Source: Candidatus Stramentimicrobium fermentans (GTDB lineage Bacteria; Atribacterota; Phoenicimicrobiia; Phoenicimicrobiales; Stramentimicrobiaceae). Taken from it: a DNA stretch of 8,410 nucleotides. The stretch is taken from positions 1 to 8,410 of the forward strand of contig JAAYOB010000003.1 in NCBI GenBank assembly GCA_012520575.1, read 5' to 3'. Below are positions 1,569 through 8,410 of the stretch, one piece after another (position 1 is the first letter of the stretch; each line of letters opens with the position of its first letter). The position numbers and the translations under genes are program-made. Below the pieces are notes generated by a model. That model saw nothing but the letters and a program-made list of their open reading frames with translations, searched no databases and was not told where the DNA came from.

Positions 1569-1592
1569 CCTCACTTTATGTCTGAAGTGAGG
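1569..1592 (+). promoter_or_regulatory. upstream leader hairpin that competes with aptamer P1
   Basis: CCTCACTT at 1569-1576 is perfectly complementary to AAGTGAGG at 1585-1592, an eight-pair stem with an eight-base loop. Its 3' arm includes 1589-1592, the first four bases of the 5' strand of P1, so this hairpin and a full P1 cannot coexist. It forms first during transcription. It may delay or destabilise P1 unless lysine is present, leaving the 3' strand of P1 free for the antiterminator. The pairing is directly visible; the regulatory role is inferred. Confidence 0.55.
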
Positions 1593-1771
1593 TAGAGGCG
1601 CGAACGATCAAGAGTACTGATAGGGAGCCCAGGCAGCGTTGAACTATCAGAAAAGGGGTCTTCGCCGAAGTCTGTGGGTCCATGCATTAAGCCCCAGGCT
1701 GGGGTTATGGTGAATAACCATAACACTGCCATCTAAGAGAACTCCTATGCTTAGGTGGAGCGCTATCTCAT
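1587..1771 (+). ncRNA. lysine riboswitch aptamer (L box)
   Basis: The sequence carries the conserved L-box elements: GGTAGAGGCGCGA after the 5' side of P1, the loop-E-like AAGAGTA at 1610-1616, AAAAGGGGTC before TCGCCGAAG at 1662-1670, and closing GGAGCGCTATCTC. The helices can be traced. P1 pairs 1589-1595 with 1763-1769 and can extend to 1587/1771. P2 includes 1617-1623 with 1644-1650. The P4 hairpin has 1704-1711 with 1717-1724. P5 pairs 1731-1737 with 1750-1756. This five-helix fold around one junction is the lysine-binding class found in lysC, lysA and lysine transporter leaders. It lies directly before an NhaC-family carrier, a known target (lysine transporter LysW type). Binding of lysine should stabilise P1 and switch the gene off through the terminator at 1813-1860. 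Confidence 0.95.
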
Positions 1772-1827
1772 CGAGAAGAGATAAAGGGGGATAAATATAC
1801 TTGCTGTTTATTAGGGCAATCGATGAG
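1767..1827 (+). promoter_or_regulatory. antiterminator of the lysine riboswitch
   Basis: CTCATCGA at 1767-1774 is the exact reverse complement of TCGATGAG at 1820-1827. The first arm uses the last three bases of the P1 3' strand, and the second arm lies inside the 5' arm of the terminator. Pairing therefore excludes both the lysine-bound aptamer and the terminator. ATAAA at 1791-1795 with TTTAT at 1807-1811 could add a hairpin inside the intervening loop. Without lysine this structure should form and allow read-through into the carrier gene. Confidence 0.75.
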
Positions 1828-1860
1828 CGTAAATGCGCTTATAGGTTGCCCTTTTTATTT
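1813..1860 (+). terminator. rho-independent terminator, expression platform of the lysine riboswitch
   Basis: Bases 1813-1830 pair with 1835-1852 in an 18-position stem with a single G/A mismatch (1822 with 1843), two G-U pairs near the middle and top, and a four-base AAAT loop. The base is AGGGCAA with TTGCCCT, followed immediately by TTTTTATTT. It sits 130 bases before the carrier start codon, so it acts as an attenuator and not as the end of a gene. Confidence 0.93.
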
Positions 1861-1991: not shown

Positions 1992-3665
1992 ATGTTGAGA
2001 AGGAGTAATTATACTCGTTATATTGTTGCCATTATTACAGTGCTCGCCGTTTTGTCTTTTTTAGCCGCAAACGGTTGGGCCGATGAAGAAAATGGAAATA
2101 GTAATGGTAATTATGGTCTTATGTCTTTAGTGCCACCCATTTTGGCGATCGTTCTCTGTATTATCTTAAAAGAGGCGTTAGTCTCTTTACTCATCGCTGT
2201 TGTAGTAGGTGTCACTATCCTAAATAGCGGCAATCTATGGACTGCCTTTGAAAATACGGCGAATATCCTAATTGCTCAGGTCGCAGATGAGTGGAATGCC
2301 AGTATTATATTATTCTTCTTTTTGGTGGGTGGTTTGATGGGCATGATATTTTTCTCCGGTGGAGGGCAGGCTTTTTTGGAATCCATCAGCAAGAAAGCTA
2401 ACAACTCTAGAATGGCACAGATCTTTCCCTGGCTTGGCGGTATTGTGGTCTTTATTGATGACTATGCTAACTCTGCCTTTGTGGGAAACCTTTTCCGTCC
2501 CCTCTCCGACAAATATTATATATCCCGGGAGAAATTATCCTATATTGTTGACTCTACTGCTGCACCGGTCTCTTCCATATTTTTAATCTCCACCTGGATA
2601 GGTTATCAGGTTGGAACTATTGGGGATTCTCTCCCGGAAGGTATTACTGTTTCTCCTTATTTTTTATGGTTGAACAGTGTCCCCTACAGTTTTTATTCCA
2701 TACTGGCTATCCTTATGGTTGGGATTATCGCCTGTACCGGCAGAGACTTCGGACCGATGTTGAAGGCAGAACATAGGGCGAGAACTACACATCAGCTCTG
2801 GGCGGAAGACGCTAGACCGTTATCCGGTACCTCAGATCTGCAGGTAGCTAAAAACGCCTCTAAAAATTCTCTGAATCTGTGGATACCTATTATCCTGCTT
2901 ATAGTACTGTCTTTCTATTTTATGTGGATGAGTGGTGGGGGCAGTGAGGCAGAATCATTCTCACAGGCAATTTCGGATGCTGATTCTATGTTTGCCATTA
3001 TGTTGGCTACGCTAATTGCTTTCTTTGTGGCTTTGGTGATGTATATAGTGCAAAGAATTGCTACTGTGGCAGAGCTAATGGACTCTTTCCTCAATGGAGC
3101 GAAGATGATGGTTTATGCTACCTTAATTTTAGTAGCGGCCTGGTCTATTAAAGAGGTTTGTGACCAATTAGGTACAGCGCCTTTTATTGTTAATGCCTTG
3201 GAAGGAATATTATCGCCGTTGATGTTGCCTATTTTAACTTTCATTGTATCCTGTTTTGTAGCTATTTTTACCGGTACTTCCTGGGGCACAATGGGGATTG
3301 TGGTTCCCATCGTGATTCCTTTGGCGGTAAGTGTAGGTGCACCACTTCCTATTGTTATTTCCAGTGTCTTAACCGGTGCCGTTATGGGTGACCATTGCAG
3401 CCCTATTTCTGATACTACTATTATGTCATCCACCTTTTCCGGCTCAGACCATATGGACCATGTCAAAACCCAATTCCCCTACTCTATCCTGGTAGCTTTA
3501 ATAGCTATAGTTTGCTATGTCCTGGTGGGAGTTGGTTTACCGGTTATTGTTGTTTTAGTGATAGGTGCTGCCCTGCTCTATCTGTCGATAATGGTTCTTT
3601 CCACTCTTTCCGCAAAACAGCTGGGTATTACCTTTCCGTTGGAAAAAGAAGTAAGTAAACCATAA
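1992..3665 (+). CDS. NhaC-family membrane carrier, probable lysine transporter
   Basis: The 557-residue protein is a polytopic inner-membrane carrier of the NhaC Na+/H+ antiporter superfamily. Long hydrophobic segments lie roughly at 8-28, 44-78, 104-122, 146-165, 190-212, 228-250, 297-314, 334-355, 372-390, 405-445, 450-466 and 497-540. Family motifs are DDYANSAFVGN at 156-166 followed by RPLSDKY and IVDSTAAP (185-192), FTGTSWGT at 426-433, and GDHCSPISDTTIMSS at 466-480. The first 30 residues (basic MLRR, hydrophobic run, then NGWADEE) look like a signal peptide or an extra leading helix. The ATG follows AAAGGAG at 1975-1981. A lysine riboswitch with attenuator controls it and a terminator follows, so it is a single-gene unit. 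In other bacteria NhaC-type genes behind L boxes are predicted lysine importers (LysW). I infer lysine uptake, possibly driven by Na+ or H+; a generic Na+/H+ antiporter label would miss this. Confidence 0.88.
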   Translation: MLRRSNYTRYIVAIITVLAVLSFLAANGWADEENGNSNGNYGLMSLVPPILAIVLCIILKEALVSLLIAVVVGVTILNSGNLWTAFENTANILIAQVADEWNASIILFFFLVGGLMGMIFFSGGGQAFLESISKKANNSRMAQIFPWLGGIVVFIDDYANSAFVGNLFRPLSDKYYISREKLSYIVDSTAAPVSSIFLISTWIGYQVGTIGDSLPEGITVSPYFLWLNSVPYSFYSILAILMVGIIACTGRDFGPMLKAEHRARTTHQLWAEDARPLSGTSDLQVAKNASKNSLNLWIPIILLIVLSFYFMWMSGGGSEAESFSQAISDADSMFAIMLATLIAFFVALVMYIVQRIATVAELMDSFLNGAKMMVYATLILVAAWSIKEVCDQLGTAPFIVNALEGILSPLMLPILTFIVSCFVAIFTGTSWGTMGIVVPIVIPLAVSVGAPLPIVISSVLTGAVMGDHCSPISDTTIMSSTFSGSDHMDHVKTQFPYSILVALIAIVCYVLVGVGLPVIVVLVIGAALLYLSIMVLSTLSAKQLGITFPLEKEVSKP

Positions 3666-3693: not shown

Positions 3694-3750
3694 AGGCAAT
3701 CCATCTCTTTATTTTGTTAAGTAAAGGGTATGGATTGTCTTTTTTTATTT
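3694..3750 (+). terminator. rho-independent terminator after the carrier gene
   Basis: A long hairpin starts about 28 bases after the carrier stop codon. Bases 3694-3704 (AGGCAATCCAT) pair with 3730-3740. After a one-base bulge (T3729), 3705-3711 (CTCTTTA) pairs with 3722-3728 (TAAAGGG), leaving a ten-base loop. The descending arm runs into a tract of T residues (3740-3746, then ATTT). This separates the lysine-regulated unit from the downstream aminotransferase cluster. Confidence 0.92.
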
Positions 3751-3804: not shown

Positions 3805-3833
3805 TTGACAAAATACTGTTTTTTATTTAAATT
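3805..3833 (+). promoter_or_regulatory. candidate promoter for the aminotransferase cluster
   Basis: A perfect -35 box TTGACA lies at 3805-3810. With the ideal 17-base spacer, the -10 would be TAAATT at 3828-3833 (4 of 6 to TATAAT). It is the best promoter in the gap between the carrier terminator and the aminotransferase. The -10 overlaps the 16-bp palindrome at 3824-3839. Confidence 0.5.
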
Positions 3834-4183: not shown

Positions 4184-5494
4184 ATGAGTAAATCAATCTT
4201 GATTAAGACCAGTATTCCCGGCCCTGAATCATTAAAGTTTGTTAAAGATAGAGATAGGTATGTGGCAAGTGCCCTAGGAGGCTCCTTATCTCCTTGTTAT
4301 ATTGCTAAAGGGGAAGGTGCCATTGTTACTGATGTTGATGGAAACCGGTTTATTGATTTGACGGGGGGGTGGGGTTGCCTTATGGTGGGGCATGCCCATC
4401 CCAAGGTAGTACAAGCCGTAAAAGAGCAAGTAGAAAATTTTACCCATACGGATTTCACCGCTGTCCCTTACAATTCTTATGTGGAATTATGCAAAAAATT
4501 AGCGGAGCTTGCTCCCGGCAAATCAGAAAAATCTGCCTGTCTTTTTAACAGCGGAGCTGAAGCAATTGAAAATGCGGTAAAAATTGCCCGGGCTGCTACG
4601 GGCAGAGCAGGGATTATAGTATTTGACAATGCCTTCCATGGCAGAACCTTGCTCACCATGACTATGACCCACAAGTCTATGCCTTATAAATATAAGTATG
4701 GGCCTTTTGCTCCCGAGGTCTATCGTCTGCCCTATCCCAATACCTACCGTCCCTCCATTGATATAAAGGATTTAGAAACTATAATGACCAATGTGGTTAA
4801 TCCGGAAACAGTTGCGGCCATGGTCATAGAACCAATGCAAGGGGAAGGAGGCTTTAATATCCCGGTCGATGGTTTCCTGGAGCATATCAGAGCATTATGT
4901 GATAAATATGGTATATTAATGGTAACCGATGAGATACAATGTGGCGTAGGTAGAACCGGAAAGTTTTTTGCTATTGAGCATTGGAATATCGAACCTGATA
5001 TTATCTGTCTGGCAAAATCTTTAGGTTCGGGATTGCCCTTATCGGCAGTCATTTTGAAAAAAGAGATAACCGGTTCGTTTCCGGGGGGTACTATAGGAGG
5101 AACTTATGTGGGTAATCCCTTATGCTGTAAAGCAGCCCTGCAGGTTCTGAAAATTATAGAAGAAGAGAATTTACTGGACCGGGCTGTGGAGGTAGGACAG
5201 CAGCTGAAGAGCAGATTTATGGATATGAGGAGTAAATACGAGATAGTGGGAGATGTGCGCGGAATGGGGGCCATGGTAGCCATTGAATTGGTAAAAGATA
5301 GGGCTGCCAAAACGCCTGCTCCGGATAAGGTAAGTGCAGTTATCGATTACTGTGTCAAGCACGGTGTTCTGGTACCCAGTGCCGGGATTAACAAGAATGT
5401 GTTAAGGATTCTGGTTTCCCCGGTTATTACTGATGATCAGTTGCAGGAAGCGCTTGATGTCATTGACAATGCCCTTGCTCTGGTAAGTGAATAA
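4184..5494 (+). CDS. class III PLP-dependent aminotransferase, 4-aminobutyrate aminotransferase-like
   Basis: The 436-residue cytosolic enzyme belongs to fold-type I, class III aminotransferases, which move the terminal amino group of omega-amino acids (4-aminobutyrate, 5-aminovalerate, ornithine and similar) to a keto acid. Visible features are the N-terminal GEGAIVTDVDGNRFIDLTGG region (43-62), the phosphate-binding NSGAEA at 122-127, FHGRT at 151-155, the E-P-M-Q-GEGG segment at 216-223, and MVTDEIQCGVGRTGK with Asp249 for the pyridine nitrogen. Lys278 in LAKSLGSGLPL is the predicted Schiff-base lysine. GGTYVGNPL with Thr307 completes the phosphate site from the partner subunit. The ATG follows AAGGAGA. 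It is the first gene of a three-gene cluster with a P-loop NTPase and an aldehyde ferredoxin oxidoreductase; the latter could oxidise the semialdehyde product. GabT-like is the nearest label, but the exact amino donor cannot be read from sequence; acetylornithine or diaminobutyrate aminotransferases are less likely alternatives. Confidence 0.88.
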   Translation: MSKSILIKTSIPGPESLKFVKDRDRYVASALGGSLSPCYIAKGEGAIVTDVDGNRFIDLTGGWGCLMVGHAHPKVVQAVKEQVENFTHTDFTAVPYNSYVELCKKLAELAPGKSEKSACLFNSGAEAIENAVKIARAATGRAGIIVFDNAFHGRTLLTMTMTHKSMPYKYKYGPFAPEVYRLPYPNTYRPSIDIKDLETIMTNVVNPETVAAMVIEPMQGEGGFNIPVDGFLEHIRALCDKYGILMVTDEIQCGVGRTGKFFAIEHWNIEPDIICLAKSLGSGLPLSAVILKKEITGSFPGGTIGGTYVGNPLCCKAALQVLKIIEEENLLDRAVEVGQQLKSRFMDMRSKYEIVGDVRGMGAMVAIELVKDRAAKTPAPDKVSAVIDYCVKHGVLVPSAGINKNVLRILVSPVITDDQLQEALDVIDNALALVSE

Positions 5495-5606
5495 GAAAAA
5501 TATTAGATTAATAAAGACCAATTTTTTCCCGGGATAACAATTAAAGGTTTAACAAAGACAAACAATTATAGAATAGTGAGCGCAAATTTAAAATAAATAA
5601 AATACA

Positions 5607-5623
5607 GAGGAGTGATTTTTTTG
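5607..5623 (+). promoter_or_regulatory. ribosome binding site that points to a TTG start
   Basis: AGAGGAGTG at 5606-5614 is the only Shine-Dalgarno-like stretch. A GTG inside it at 5612 would overlap the site and cannot be used efficiently with it. The TTG at 5621-5623 is in the same frame, eight bases after AGGAG, and gives an N-terminus MKKQNVLIMGAAG that begins straight at the first strand of the Rossmann fold. Confidence 0.7.
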
Positions 5624-6937
5624 AAAAAACAGAATGTTTTGATTATGGGGGCGGCCGGTAGAGATTTTCATAATTTTAATGTGTTTTTTCGCAATAATGA
5701 AAATTTCAATGTGGCCGCCTTTACTGCAACTCAAATTCCCGATATTGCCGGGCGTAAATACCCTCCGGAATTGAGTGGTCCACTCTATCCTGACGGGATA
5801 CCGATTTTTCCGGAAGAGGATTTACCGGAGTTGATTAAAAAACATAATATCAACCAGGTTGTTTTAGCCTACAGCGATTTGCCACACCAATACGTAATGG
5901 AGAGAGCATCATTAGTGTTGGCCCATGGAGCTGATTTCAGATTGATGGGTCCGGACAATACTATGCTGAAAGCGAAAGTTCCTTTAATCTCAATCTGTGC
6001 CACCAGAACCGGTTCAGGGAAAAGCCAGACTACCCGCAAAGTATCCGCTATTTTAAAAGAGATGGGTAAAAAAGTGGTGGTAATCAGACATCCCATGCCA
6101 TACGGAGATTTGTCTGACCAGATCTGGCAGCGTTTTAAGACCTATGATGATCTGGATAGATATGAGTGTACTATTGAGGAACGTGAAGAATACGAACCTC
6201 ATATAGATGTAGGCAATATTGTCTATGCCGGTGTTGATTATGGTGAAATCTTAAAGAGAGCGGAACAGGAGGCAGATATTATCCTCTGGGACGGCGGAAA
6301 TAATGATATTCCTTTCTACCACACCGATTTACACATCGTAGTTGCTGACCCCCATCGGGTGGGACATGAGCTGACCTATTATCCGGGGCTGGTTAATATG
6401 ATGATGGCAGATGTAGTGGTAATCAATAAGATCGATACCGCAGACCAGGAAAATATTGTTCAGCTAAGAGACCATATTGCCAAAATCGTACCTGAGGCGA
6501 TAACTATCGATGCCGCATCCCCGATTAAAGTTGACCATGCCGAGCTTATCAGGGGCAAAAAAGTAATAGTAGTGGAAGATGGACCAACCTTAACCCACGG
6601 AGAAATGCAGTTCGGAGCCGGGATTGTAGCGGCTCAAAAATATGGGGCTGCTGAAATAATTGATCCACGGCCCTTTGCCGTAGGCAGTATCAAAGATACC
6701 TATCAGAAATATCCAGGTATAGGTATGGTATTGCCGGCTATGGGTTATGGGAGCAAGCAGATGCAGGAATTAGAGTCTACCATTAATAGCATTGATGTCG
6801 AGCTGGTGATTATAGCCACTCCCATTGATTTGAGCAGAGTAATGAAAATAGAAAAAAATAATGTTCGAGTTAAATATGATTTACAAGAAATTGGCAGTCC
6901 TAATTTAAAAGAGATTTTACTGCAAAAATTATCATAA
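5621..6937 (+). CDS. COG2403-type P-loop NTPase (often labelled cyclic 2,3-diphosphoglycerate synthetase-like)
   Basis: With the TTG start the protein has 438 residues. It opens with a Rossmann-like domain (KKQNVLIMGAAGRDFHNFN, 2-20), an early PPELSGPLYPDGIPI segment, and a strand-helix unit ending near 115. A second domain starts with the P-loop TRTGSGKSQTT at 128-138. It continues with an SIMIBI-like strand KVVVIRHPMPYGD (151-163), a probable Walker B at ADIILWDGGNND (218-229), and NKID at 269-272, a guanine-specificity motif typical of GTPases. The C-terminal part (about 330-438) is compact and ends without membrane segments. Such proteins are named after the methanogen enzyme that cyclises 2,3-diphosphoglycerate, but nothing else here suggests that solute. 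It lies 126 bases after the aminotransferase and 62 bases before the aldehyde oxidoreductase, without a terminator on either side. A catabolic kinase or ligase, or a metal/cofactor chaperone GTPase for the oxidoreductase, are both possible; the function is unknown. Confidence 0.8.
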   Translation: MKKQNVLIMGAAGRDFHNFNVFFRNNENFNVAAFTATQIPDIAGRKYPPELSGPLYPDGIPIFPEEDLPELIKKHNINQVVLAYSDLPHQYVMERASLVLAHGADFRLMGPDNTMLKAKVPLISICATRTGSGKSQTTRKVSAILKEMGKKVVVIRHPMPYGDLSDQIWQRFKTYDDLDRYECTIEEREEYEPHIDVGNIVYAGVDYGEILKRAEQEADIILWDGGNNDIPFYHTDLHIVVADPHRVGHELTYYPGLVNMMMADVVVINKIDTADQENIVQLRDHIAKIVPEAITIDAASPIKVDHAELIRGKKVIVVEDGPTLTHGEMQFGAGIVAAQKYGAAEIIDPRPFAVGSIKDTYQKYPGIGMVLPAMGYGSKQMQELESTINSIDVELVIIATPIDLSRVMKIEKNNVRVKYDLQEIGSPNLKEILLQKLS

Positions 6938-6999
6938 GCATATTACAAAGTTACCGATGATGATAAAGAAGCAGAAATATTTTTTAAAGGAGGCTTTTT

Positions 7000-8410
7000 A
7001 TGCTGGAAGGCCAAACCATCTTTACATTTCAGTATCAACCTGCAAAGATTGTGAGGGGTTACACTGATAAAGCATTACACCTCAATCTATCCACTAAAGA
7101 AGCAACTATCAAAGAAATTCCTTCTAAGGTCAAAGAAGTTCTGACCGGGGGGCGTGGTTATGGGCTGTGGTATCTCTGGCAGGCGATAAATCCGGAGACA
7201 AAATGGGATTCTCCGGAAAATGAAATGGTATTCTGCACCGGACCCCTCTGTGGGGTTACTCAATATTCAGGGTGCGGTAAGAGCCATGTGGTGAGCCTCT
7301 CGCCGCAAACAGGCAGTGCTAATGACAACAATGCCGGAGGCTATTTTGCACCTTTCTTAAAATTTTCGGGATGGGATGTGCTGGAAGTGCAGGGCAAAGC
7401 CGAAGAGGATGTTATTATCTTCATAGACGGTAACAAGGGAGAGGTCGCAGTACGAACCTACCCCTATGAGGATACCGACTCCTATCTCTTAGTGGAGAAA
7501 TTGACGGAACATTTTGCCGAAAATGAACAGGATAAATCCAATATCAGTATTGTTTCAGCCGGGAGAGGTGCTGAGCATTCTTTAATGGGTATTCTTAATT
7601 TTAGCTGGTATGACCGCAAGCGCAAAGCAGTACGTTACAAGCAGGCGGCTCGGGGTGGACCGGGTACTGTTTTCAGAGATAAAAAGATAGTAGCCATTGT
7701 AATAAAATTTAAAGGTGTAACCGGCTCCATTAACAACCCTGCAGACCCTGAATTGTTGAAGAAGGCGGGCCAACGTATCACTCAGGAGATTCTTTTACTG
7801 GATGATATACAAAACGGAATGCGGCAGACCGGTACCGTTAACCTTCTTGACCATATGAACAATCATGAATGTTTACCGGTGCATAATTTTCAATACGGTT
7901 CACACCCGGATGCTCTTAACATCTATAACAAGGTTTGGAAAGAAAGAATTACCCAGAATCAGATTGGTGATTCCTGCTGGATTGGGTGCTCTCTGCGTTG
8001 CTCAAAGGCAGTTGATAAATTTGAACTTACCACAGGTCCTTTAAAGGGTAAAAAAGTTATCGTTGATGGTCCGGAATATGAGACCGCCGCCGGTATTGGT
8101 GCGAATTGCGGCTGTTTTGTGCCGGAAACGGTGCTGGAAGCAAACTTCTATTGCGACCACTATGGGGTTGATACCATTGCTGTAGCTACCACCATTGCTT
8201 TTTTGATGGAATGTTATGAGAGAGGAATTCTGACTCAGGAAATGACCGGTGGTATGGACCTGAGATTTGGCAATGGAGAGGCACTTCTAGAACTGCTCCA
8301 TCAGATGGCCCGCGATGAAGGATTCGGTAAGATTGCCGGCTTAGGAGTTAGGCGGGCTAAAAAGTATTTAGTAGAACATTTCAATGCCGACCAAAAATTT
8401 TTAGATGATA
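7000..8410 (+). CDS. aldehyde:ferredoxin oxidoreductase, tungstopterin family (partial, 3' end outside window)
   Basis: The first 470 codons are present and run off the right edge; family members usually exceed 580 residues. The ATG at 7000 follows a near-perfect AAAGGAGG (6986-6993) by six bases. These enzymes oxidise aldehydes to acids with ferredoxin as acceptor, using a tungsten bis-pterin and a 4Fe-4S cluster, in the cytoplasm. Family landmarks are RGYTDKALHLNL (19-30), TGGRGYG (49-55), GPLCGVTQYSG (81-91), the SPQTGSANDNNAGGYFAP segment (101-118) leading to FSGWDVLEVQGKA, RGGPGTVF (218-225), LPVHNF, the cysteine cluster 326/330/334, the pterin-region DGPEYET (356-362), DTIAVATTIAFLMECYERG (391-409) and LRFGNGEALLELL. 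The first two cluster cysteines are three residues apart, where Pyrococcus AOR has two. About 15 residues precede the usual N-terminal start of the family. The fourth cluster cysteine should lie beyond the window. Aldehyde, formaldehyde, glyceraldehyde-3-phosphate or BamB-like substrates cannot be told apart here. Confidence 0.92.
   Translation, partial: MLEGQTIFTFQYQPAKIVRGYTDKALHLNLSTKEATIKEIPSKVKEVLTGGRGYGLWYLWQAINPETKWDSPENEMVFCTGPLCGVTQYSGCGKSHVVSLSPQTGSANDNNAGGYFAPFLKFSGWDVLEVQGKAEEDVIIFIDGNKGEVAVRTYPYEDTDSYLLVEKLTEHFAENEQDKSNISIVSAGRGAEHSLMGILNFSWYDRKRKAVRYKQAARGGPGTVFRDKKIVAIVIKFKGVTGSINNPADPELLKKAGQRITQEILLLDDIQNGMRQTGTVNLLDHMNNHECLPVHNFQYGSHPDALNIYNKVWKERITQNQIGDSCWIGCSLRCSKAVDKFELTTGPLKGKKVIVDGPEYETAAGIGANCGCFVPETVLEANFYCDHYGVDTIAVATTIAFLMECYERGILTQEMTGGMDLRFGNGEALLELLHQMARDEGFGKIAGLGVRRAKKYLVEHFNADQKFLDD

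Follow-up and report, generated by a model that had tools for sequence, protein, structure and literature searches.

What do a class-III aminotransferase (AT), a P-loop NTPase and a tungsten aldehyde oxidoreductase (AOR) do together when their genes stand in a row? The question is raised by the window analysed here, a stretch of 8410 bp from Candidatus Stramentimicrobium fermentans (Atribacterota), which is the entire contig C1 of a 1.58-Mb metagenome-assembled genome (MAG; 98% complete, 50 contigs; G000 hereafter). The three genes are indeed consecutive on the + strand, as described in the first-pass annotation; matches to PF00202 for AT and to PF02730 with PF01314 for AOR bear out these two. 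The gaps are about 126 bp between AT and the NTPase gene and about 62 bp between the NTPase gene and AOR, and no terminator was found in the intergenic sequences inspected between them. The first-pass annotation had regarded the NTPase as unexplained and as the likeliest place for undescribed biology. It turned out to be the best explained of the three genes, since its arginine-gene neighbours elsewhere fit the arginine synthetase ArcE. I propose, with a probability of about 50%, that AT, ArcE and AOR constitute a catabolic module for arginine and ornithine. The features of the window are listed in Table 1.

Is the NTPase an ArcE? A total of 68 readable NTPase loci outside the Atribacterota were taken as a sample for neighbour counts. 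At 50 of these loci, argS or a gene for carbamate kinase (ArcC), ornithine carbamoyltransferase (OTC) or pyrroline-5-carboxylate dehydrogenase (P5CDH) lies at most three genes away on the same strand (argS at 33 loci, many of which belong to related Anaerolineae and hence are non-independent; arcC at 14, OTC at 7 and P5CDH at 2). Representative argS, OTC and P5CDH neighbours score above the NCBIfam cut-offs. Two Thermococcus homologues are 65-66% identical to the window NTPase, and an alignment of 19 sequences from many phyla has 145 invariant columns. ArcE (TK2200) of Thermococcus kodakarensis, reported in 2024 (Michimori et al.), is described as converting arginine, ADP and Pi into citrulline, NH3 and ATP, as standing in for arginine deiminase and as having homologues widespread among bacteria and archaea (PMC13260591). 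If ArcE replaces arginine deiminase (ArcA), the latter is expected to be absent and carbamate kinase to be present. I looked for this pattern in apparently all the available genomes of the order, 24 in number: 10 of the window's family (f1), G000 included, and 14 of the sister family (f2). The pattern was seen: a true ArcA above cut-off was found in none of the 24 genomes, and an ArcC above cut-off in 16 of them, G000 included. Judging from homology and gene context, the window NTPase is most likely ArcE.

The protein databases themselves give little guidance. No Pfam or NCBIfam family matched the NTPase above cut-off, and there was no match in PHROGs. In the collection of papers searched, COG2403, the label given to the protein, had no match. 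The TTG at position 5621, which lies behind GAGGAG, is a better start codon than the GTG at 5612. A homologue with 52% identity is annotated as cyclic 2,3-diphosphoglycerate (cDPG) synthetase. The predicted structure of the NTPase (mean pLDDT 89.6) aligned with the cDPG synthetase 8oru with a Z score of 21.4 and a root-mean-square deviation of 13.2 over 364 residues, at 17% identity. The large deviation of the model probably reflects a domain shift. Although the fold is common to both proteins, the function of cDPG synthetase was rejected for the NTPase because of the low identity and the arginine-gene context.

What, then, is the substrate of AT? The FHGRT, TDE, AKS and LRI motifs of the pyridoxal phosphate site and of class III are conserved in the window AT. 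In f1, an AT orthologue lies directly downstream of OTC in seven genomes (G001, G002, G003, G006, G007, G008 and G009). The gaps are mostly about 70-90 bp, with 676 bp in G002, and these OTCs score above the curated cut-off. In f2, an AT orthologue lies directly upstream of ArcE in six genomes (G011, G014, G018, G021, G022 and G023), and an AT fragment remains beside ArcE in G013. Because the orthologues adjoin two different arginine genes, AT most likely acts on ornithine. Two side observations were made on these loci. In G020 (L043:4123-5262), the position directly before ArcE is occupied not by AT but by a class-I aminotransferase of the same type as capreomycidine synthase and GntC, whose substrates derive from arginine. 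A G021 contig (C24; L161) carries an f1-like AT together with an OTC that shares 97% identity with the OTC of G009, an f1 genome, and is probably misbinned.

Among the surveyed genomes, the exact order AT-ArcE-AOR was found only in G000. Where did its AT come from? In the AT tree, the window AT groups as sister to the AT of G002, which is OTC-linked, with a support of 100/100, and is hence not a second, unrelated gene. The old locus can still be recognised on contig C10 of G000, where a C-terminal DUF1015 remnant between purH and PyrR marks a deletion scar (L231:7278-7867). Compared with relatives, the SerC-like and SerA-like genes are gone, as is the OTC-AT stretch between the DUF1015 remnant and PyrR. 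It seems that AT moved from the deleted OTC locus to the position directly before ArcE, an independent re-linking whose arrangement matches that of f2.

The earlier suggestion of a single operon is plausible for G000. Hairpins with T-runs resembling the terminator behind the transporter gene also occur in the sequences of G001, G003, G004 and G007. The f1 relatives have an ArcE promoter, TTGATT-17-TA(A/C)AAT, about 60 nt upstream of ArcE, which is lost in G000. Because the transporter gene is followed by a terminator, the ArcE promoter is lost and no internal terminator exists, AT, ArcE and AOR are probably on one transcript in G000, as far as the sequence can tell.

Table 1. Features of the 8410-bp window
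Feature	Positions	Strand	Evidence
Lysine riboswitch aptamer RF00168, leader of the transporter gene	1585-1773	+	109.9 bits with cmscan against a gathering score of 30, E 2.7e-29
Intrinsic terminator of the riboswitch	1813-1856	+	hairpin, -24.8 kcal/mol
NhaC-superfamily transporter, LysW-like	1992-3665	+	PF03553, 213 bits; adjoins NTPase and AOR in f1 and f2
Intrinsic terminator closing the transporter transcript	3694-3746	+	-24.7 kcal/mol, z -8.1 vs 200 shuffles, then T7
Candidate promoter of AT-NTPase-AOR, TTGACA-17-TAAATT	3805-3833	+	10/12 consensus matches; consensus only
AT, class-III aminotransferase, probably ornithine delta-aminotransferase	4184-5494	+	PF00202, 418 bits; OTC/ArcE neighbours of orthologues
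COG2403-type P-loop NTPase, probably arginine synthetase ArcE	5621-6937	+	Thermococcus homology, arginine-gene neighbours, fold
AOR, tungsten aldehyde:ferredoxin oxidoreductase, candidate glutamate-5-semialdehyde oxidoreductase	7000-8410	+	PF02730 and PF01314

The AOR gene is open at the contig end. Its N-terminal 470 codons are present, complete relatives have 718 aa, and the remainder was not found on the other contigs of G000. Both domains, AFOR_N (PF02730) and AFOR_C (PF01314), score above cut-off (152.8 and 192.5 bits; 160 and 328 bits in a full-length relative). The N-terminal part has the cysteine cluster motif GDSCWIGCSLRCSKAV, and the nearest PDB chains are aldehyde:ferredoxin oxidoreductases. 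The match to the NCBIfam model PRK09849 is only 86.9 bits.

Which aldehyde may this AOR oxidise? AOR adjoins ArcE throughout the order. At two other loci (L048 and L050), P5CDH lies directly before ArcE and carbamate kinase, and the P5CDH of L048 scores above the NCBIfam cut-off. In G000, neither a P5CDH-type aldehyde dehydrogenase nor a ProA-like match was found, and the only aldehyde dehydrogenase matches are one acylating-type partial sequence and one 77-residue remnant. Since AOR keeps to ArcE, and since P5CDH precedes ArcE elsewhere and is absent from G000, AOR is the leading candidate for the oxidation of glutamate-5-semialdehyde, in which ferredoxin would accept the electrons. No paper in the collection searched joins "aldehyde ferredoxin oxidoreductase" and "glutamate semialdehyde".

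The semialdehyde might instead be used for biosynthesis. AT would then serve proline synthesis via pyrroline-5-carboxylate and ProC, and ArcE would serve to supply ATP or carbamoyl phosphate, while AOR would have an unrelated, broad role in aldehyde detoxification or energy metabolism. ProC is present in 18 of the 24 genomes, including G000 with its lack of a ProA-like match, and PMC11921379 cites a precedent in the ornithine aminotransferase of T. kodakarensis. However, this scheme leaves unexplained why AOR keeps its place beside ArcE across the order, a place that in G011 is held by an AOR from a different subfamily (26% identity). This scheme is improbable.

Is the neighbourhood conserved? 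In f1, the arrangement transporter-NTPase-AOR is found in 9 of the 10 genomes. In f2, NTPase-transporter-AOR is usual (about 10 genomes), and AT precedes it in six of them. The NTPase gene was not found in three of the 14 f2 genomes, and it is broken in G016. In this 98% complete genome, the ArcE gene is fragmented (L053:9153-9879) and the transporter and AOR genes do not adjoin, which represents a loss of the module. Both families of the order thus share the linkage between the genes for the NTPase, AOR and NhaC-type transporter. Elsewhere the NTPase is also widespread, but without AOR or transporter partners; outside the Atribacterota, no AOR or NhaC homologue above 80 bits was found beside it, and the class-III aminotransferases nearby are distant (36-38%), on the opposite strand and 6-9 kb off. 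The first-pass annotation would have counted a neighbourhood kept only in close relatives against the operon; the conservation found for the NTPase, AOR and the transporter spans two families and ends at the border of the order.

How might the arginine module work? ArcE would convert arginine, ADP and Pi into citrulline, NH3 and ATP, a step well supported by context and homology. OTC would then convert citrulline and Pi into ornithine and carbamoyl phosphate, and carbamate kinase would yield a second ATP; the enzymes of this step were found in relatives, while OTC was not found in G000. From its context, AT would take the delta-amino group from ornithine and pass it to 2-oxoglutarate. The product, glutamate-5-semialdehyde, would equilibrate with pyrroline-5-carboxylate, and ProC would divert some of it to proline. 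In place of an NAD-linked P5CDH, which accompanies ArcE in some other phyla, AOR would oxidise glutamate-5-semialdehyde to glutamate and reduce ferredoxin. Uptake of the basic amino acid or acids would fall to the NhaC/LysW-type transporter, whose gene is under the lysine riboswitch. The general idea that AOR could oxidise a semialdehyde made by AT, put forward before, is plausible.

In its full form, this would be a ferredoxin-linked fermentation of arginine, perhaps also of lysine, with two ATP per arginine and a dedicated AOR subfamily acting on glutamate-5-semialdehyde and possibly on 2-aminoadipate semialdehyde. I offer this extended scheme only tentatively. If it is true, the AOR family would gain a new physiological substrate. 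What is new here is that, in the Atribacterota, ArcE is linked with AT and with a distinct subfamily of AOR, together with the proposed ferredoxin-linked oxidation step. The Atribacterota, anaerobes that live in sediments and digesters, have been cultured hardly or not at all, and the substrates of many of them are debated. For an order of uncultured bacteria, the cluster offers a concrete route for obtaining energy from amino acids that centres on the recently described arginine synthetase. A defined substrate is also proposed for an AOR subfamily whose function had so far not been assigned.

Several points weigh against the arginine module. First, TK2200 is only presumably a member of the family of the window NTPase; the context evidence holds independently of this assignment. 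Second, ornithine specificity is not discernible from the residues of AT, and the AOR sequence has no feature indicating its substrate, glutamate-5-semialdehyde included. Third, no OTC was found in G000, where the only carbamoyltransferase found is PyrB. The pathway is at its weakest here, since without OTC it has a gap in G000 between citrulline and ornithine. An ADI/DDAH-superfamily protein of about 313 aa, encoded on contig C9 (L238:1060-2127) and also in G002, might bypass the missing OTC by supplying ornithine. Among proteins of solved structure, it comes closest to dimethylargininases, with low similarity. OTC may also lie in the missing portion of the genome, and in a single MAG an assembly fault is possible.

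The carbamoyltransferase encoded beside carbamate kinase on contig C45 was considered as an OTC and rejected, as NCBIfam identifies it as PyrB. At this locus (L137:9781-11723), carbamate kinase is directly followed by PyrB, and a similar pair is present in several relatives. It is possible that the pair supplies carbamoyl phosphate directly for pyrimidines.

A fourth point is that the top NCBIfam models of AT are transaminases of 4-aminobutyrate (GABA), with scores of 525.7, 500.3 and 495.6 bits against cut-offs of 676, 639 and 506.65, respectively, all below. The nearest PDB chains of AT are GABA transaminases as well, and the score with the NCBIfam ornithine transaminase model TIGR01885 is 271.6 bits, below its cut-off of 378.4. 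Such a resemblance speaks for the route of the first-pass annotation, in which transamination of GABA or 5-aminovalerate would give a semialdehyde that AOR turns into succinate or glutarate. However, none of the GABA transaminase scores reaches its curated cut-off, and Trp63 is invariant in the AT clade, where the aligned GABA transaminases, ArgD and other class-III aminotransferases have Ile. Position 63 lines the pocket for the substrate in GABA transaminase; in human ornithine aminotransferase it is Tyr. Moreover, the neighbours of the AT orthologues, OTC and ArcE, are arginine genes, none of the neighbours examined suggested metabolism of GABA or 5-aminovalerate, and the NTPase would be left unexplained. 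These two omega-amino acids are therefore very improbable substrates.

The fifth point comes from the region upstream, where the lysine riboswitch and the transporter gene had been omitted from the first-pass annotation. The riboswitch is present at the same position in six f1 relatives. The 5′ arm of its terminator, TCGATGAG (1820-1827), is able to pair with CTCATCGA (1767-1774), and the latter, which is used by the antiterminator, overlaps the 3′ strand of P1. The f1 leaders folded with and without P1 gave an OFF pattern, so that the f1 riboswitch is a predicted OFF switch. A lysine riboswitch with nhaC/lysW is a known pairing (PMC5584792, PMC11477304), and the transporter probably takes up one or more basic amino acids. 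In six f2 genomes, the riboswitch lies before a saccharopine-dehydrogenase (SDH)-like gene, AT, ArcE, the transporter gene and AOR. The f2 antiterminator does not overlap P1 in the folding, and the f2 leaders might have a polarity other than OFF.

Two SDH-like genes are found upstream of AT-ArcE in f2 (L040:7336-10332, L045:6505-9502 and L047:5499-8368). The nearest solved relative of both proteins is PH1688 (3abi; 229 bits for the 378-aa protein), a lysine dehydrogenase. Upstream of the SDH-like genes, L045 and L046 have large and small subunits of the homoaconitase family, an isopropylmalate-dehydrogenase-like gene and MmgE/PrpD. At L047, genes for butyrate kinase, phosphate butyryltransferase and 2-oxoacid:acceptor oxidoreductase precede them. 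The surroundings of the f2 SDH-like genes are possibly a lysine-linked region, perhaps an undescribed one.

Is lysine, then, the true substrate? Both the riboswitch and the lysine-dehydrogenase-like genes of f2 point to it. In a lysine module, the transporter would import lysine, a lysine 6-dehydrogenase or saccharopine route would yield 2-aminoadipate semialdehyde, AOR would oxidise the latter to 2-aminoadipate, and AT would produce 2-oxoadipate. ArcE would handle arginine imported by the same transporter; in a milder form, lysine, arginine and ornithine would be served by a mixed module with one AOR. The position of the riboswitch in both families, the resemblance of the f2 proteins to PH1688 and the butyrate kinase, phosphate butyryltransferase and oxidoreductase genes adjoining the SDH-like genes in G021 fit such a module. 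In contrast, no SDH-like gene was found near the cluster in f1, where AT adjoins OTC, and the neighbours of ArcE elsewhere are arginine genes. The modelled OFF polarity of the f1 riboswitch fits uptake rather than catabolism. In addition, a terminator divides the riboswitch unit from AT-ArcE-AOR in the window, and LysA is present in G009, the f1 genome examined. A lysine module is the less likely of the two, yet a role of AOR on the lysine-derived semialdehyde is a serious rival. The arginine module is the better reading for f1, because the terminator closes off the riboswitch unit and genes for lysine degradation are not nearby. In f2, the same AOR may also receive 2-aminoadipate semialdehyde from a lysine branch.

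How does the proposed module compare with known systems? The NTPase has the overall fold of cDPG synthetase (8oru and 9sxb), and its homologues carry that annotation name; unlike that enzyme, it lies among arginine genes, and, judging from sequence and context, it probably does not make cDPG. The upstream unit resembles the lysine riboswitch and lysW units (PMC5584792, PMC11477304) in its RF00168 aptamer, intrinsic terminator and NhaC-family gene. It differs from them in that ArcE and AOR come after it, and in that the f2 riboswitch precedes the whole set of SDH-like gene, AT, ArcE, transporter gene and AOR. The window AOR shares both domains and the N-terminal cysteine motif with the AFOR family (1aor, 9mqx and 8c0z), whose structures have 604-616 aa, in contrast to about 718 aa in the relatives of the window AOR. 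As in the T. kodakarensis ArcE pathway (TK2200, ArcB and ArcC), an ArcE-type protein (66% identical to Thermococcus homologues) and carbamate kinase are present in G000, a true arginine deiminase was not found, and relatives have OTC. The differences are that G000 has no detectable OTC and that the window ArcE stands beside AT and AOR, which would extend the route past ornithine. With the route of ornithine aminotransferase and P5CDH, the window has in common a class-III AT linked to OTC or ArcE, and a true P5CDH before ArcE and carbamate kinase is known from the two loci mentioned above. Whereas that route relies on P5CDH, G000 lacks this enzyme and has AOR beside ArcE, so that the electrons would reach ferredoxin.

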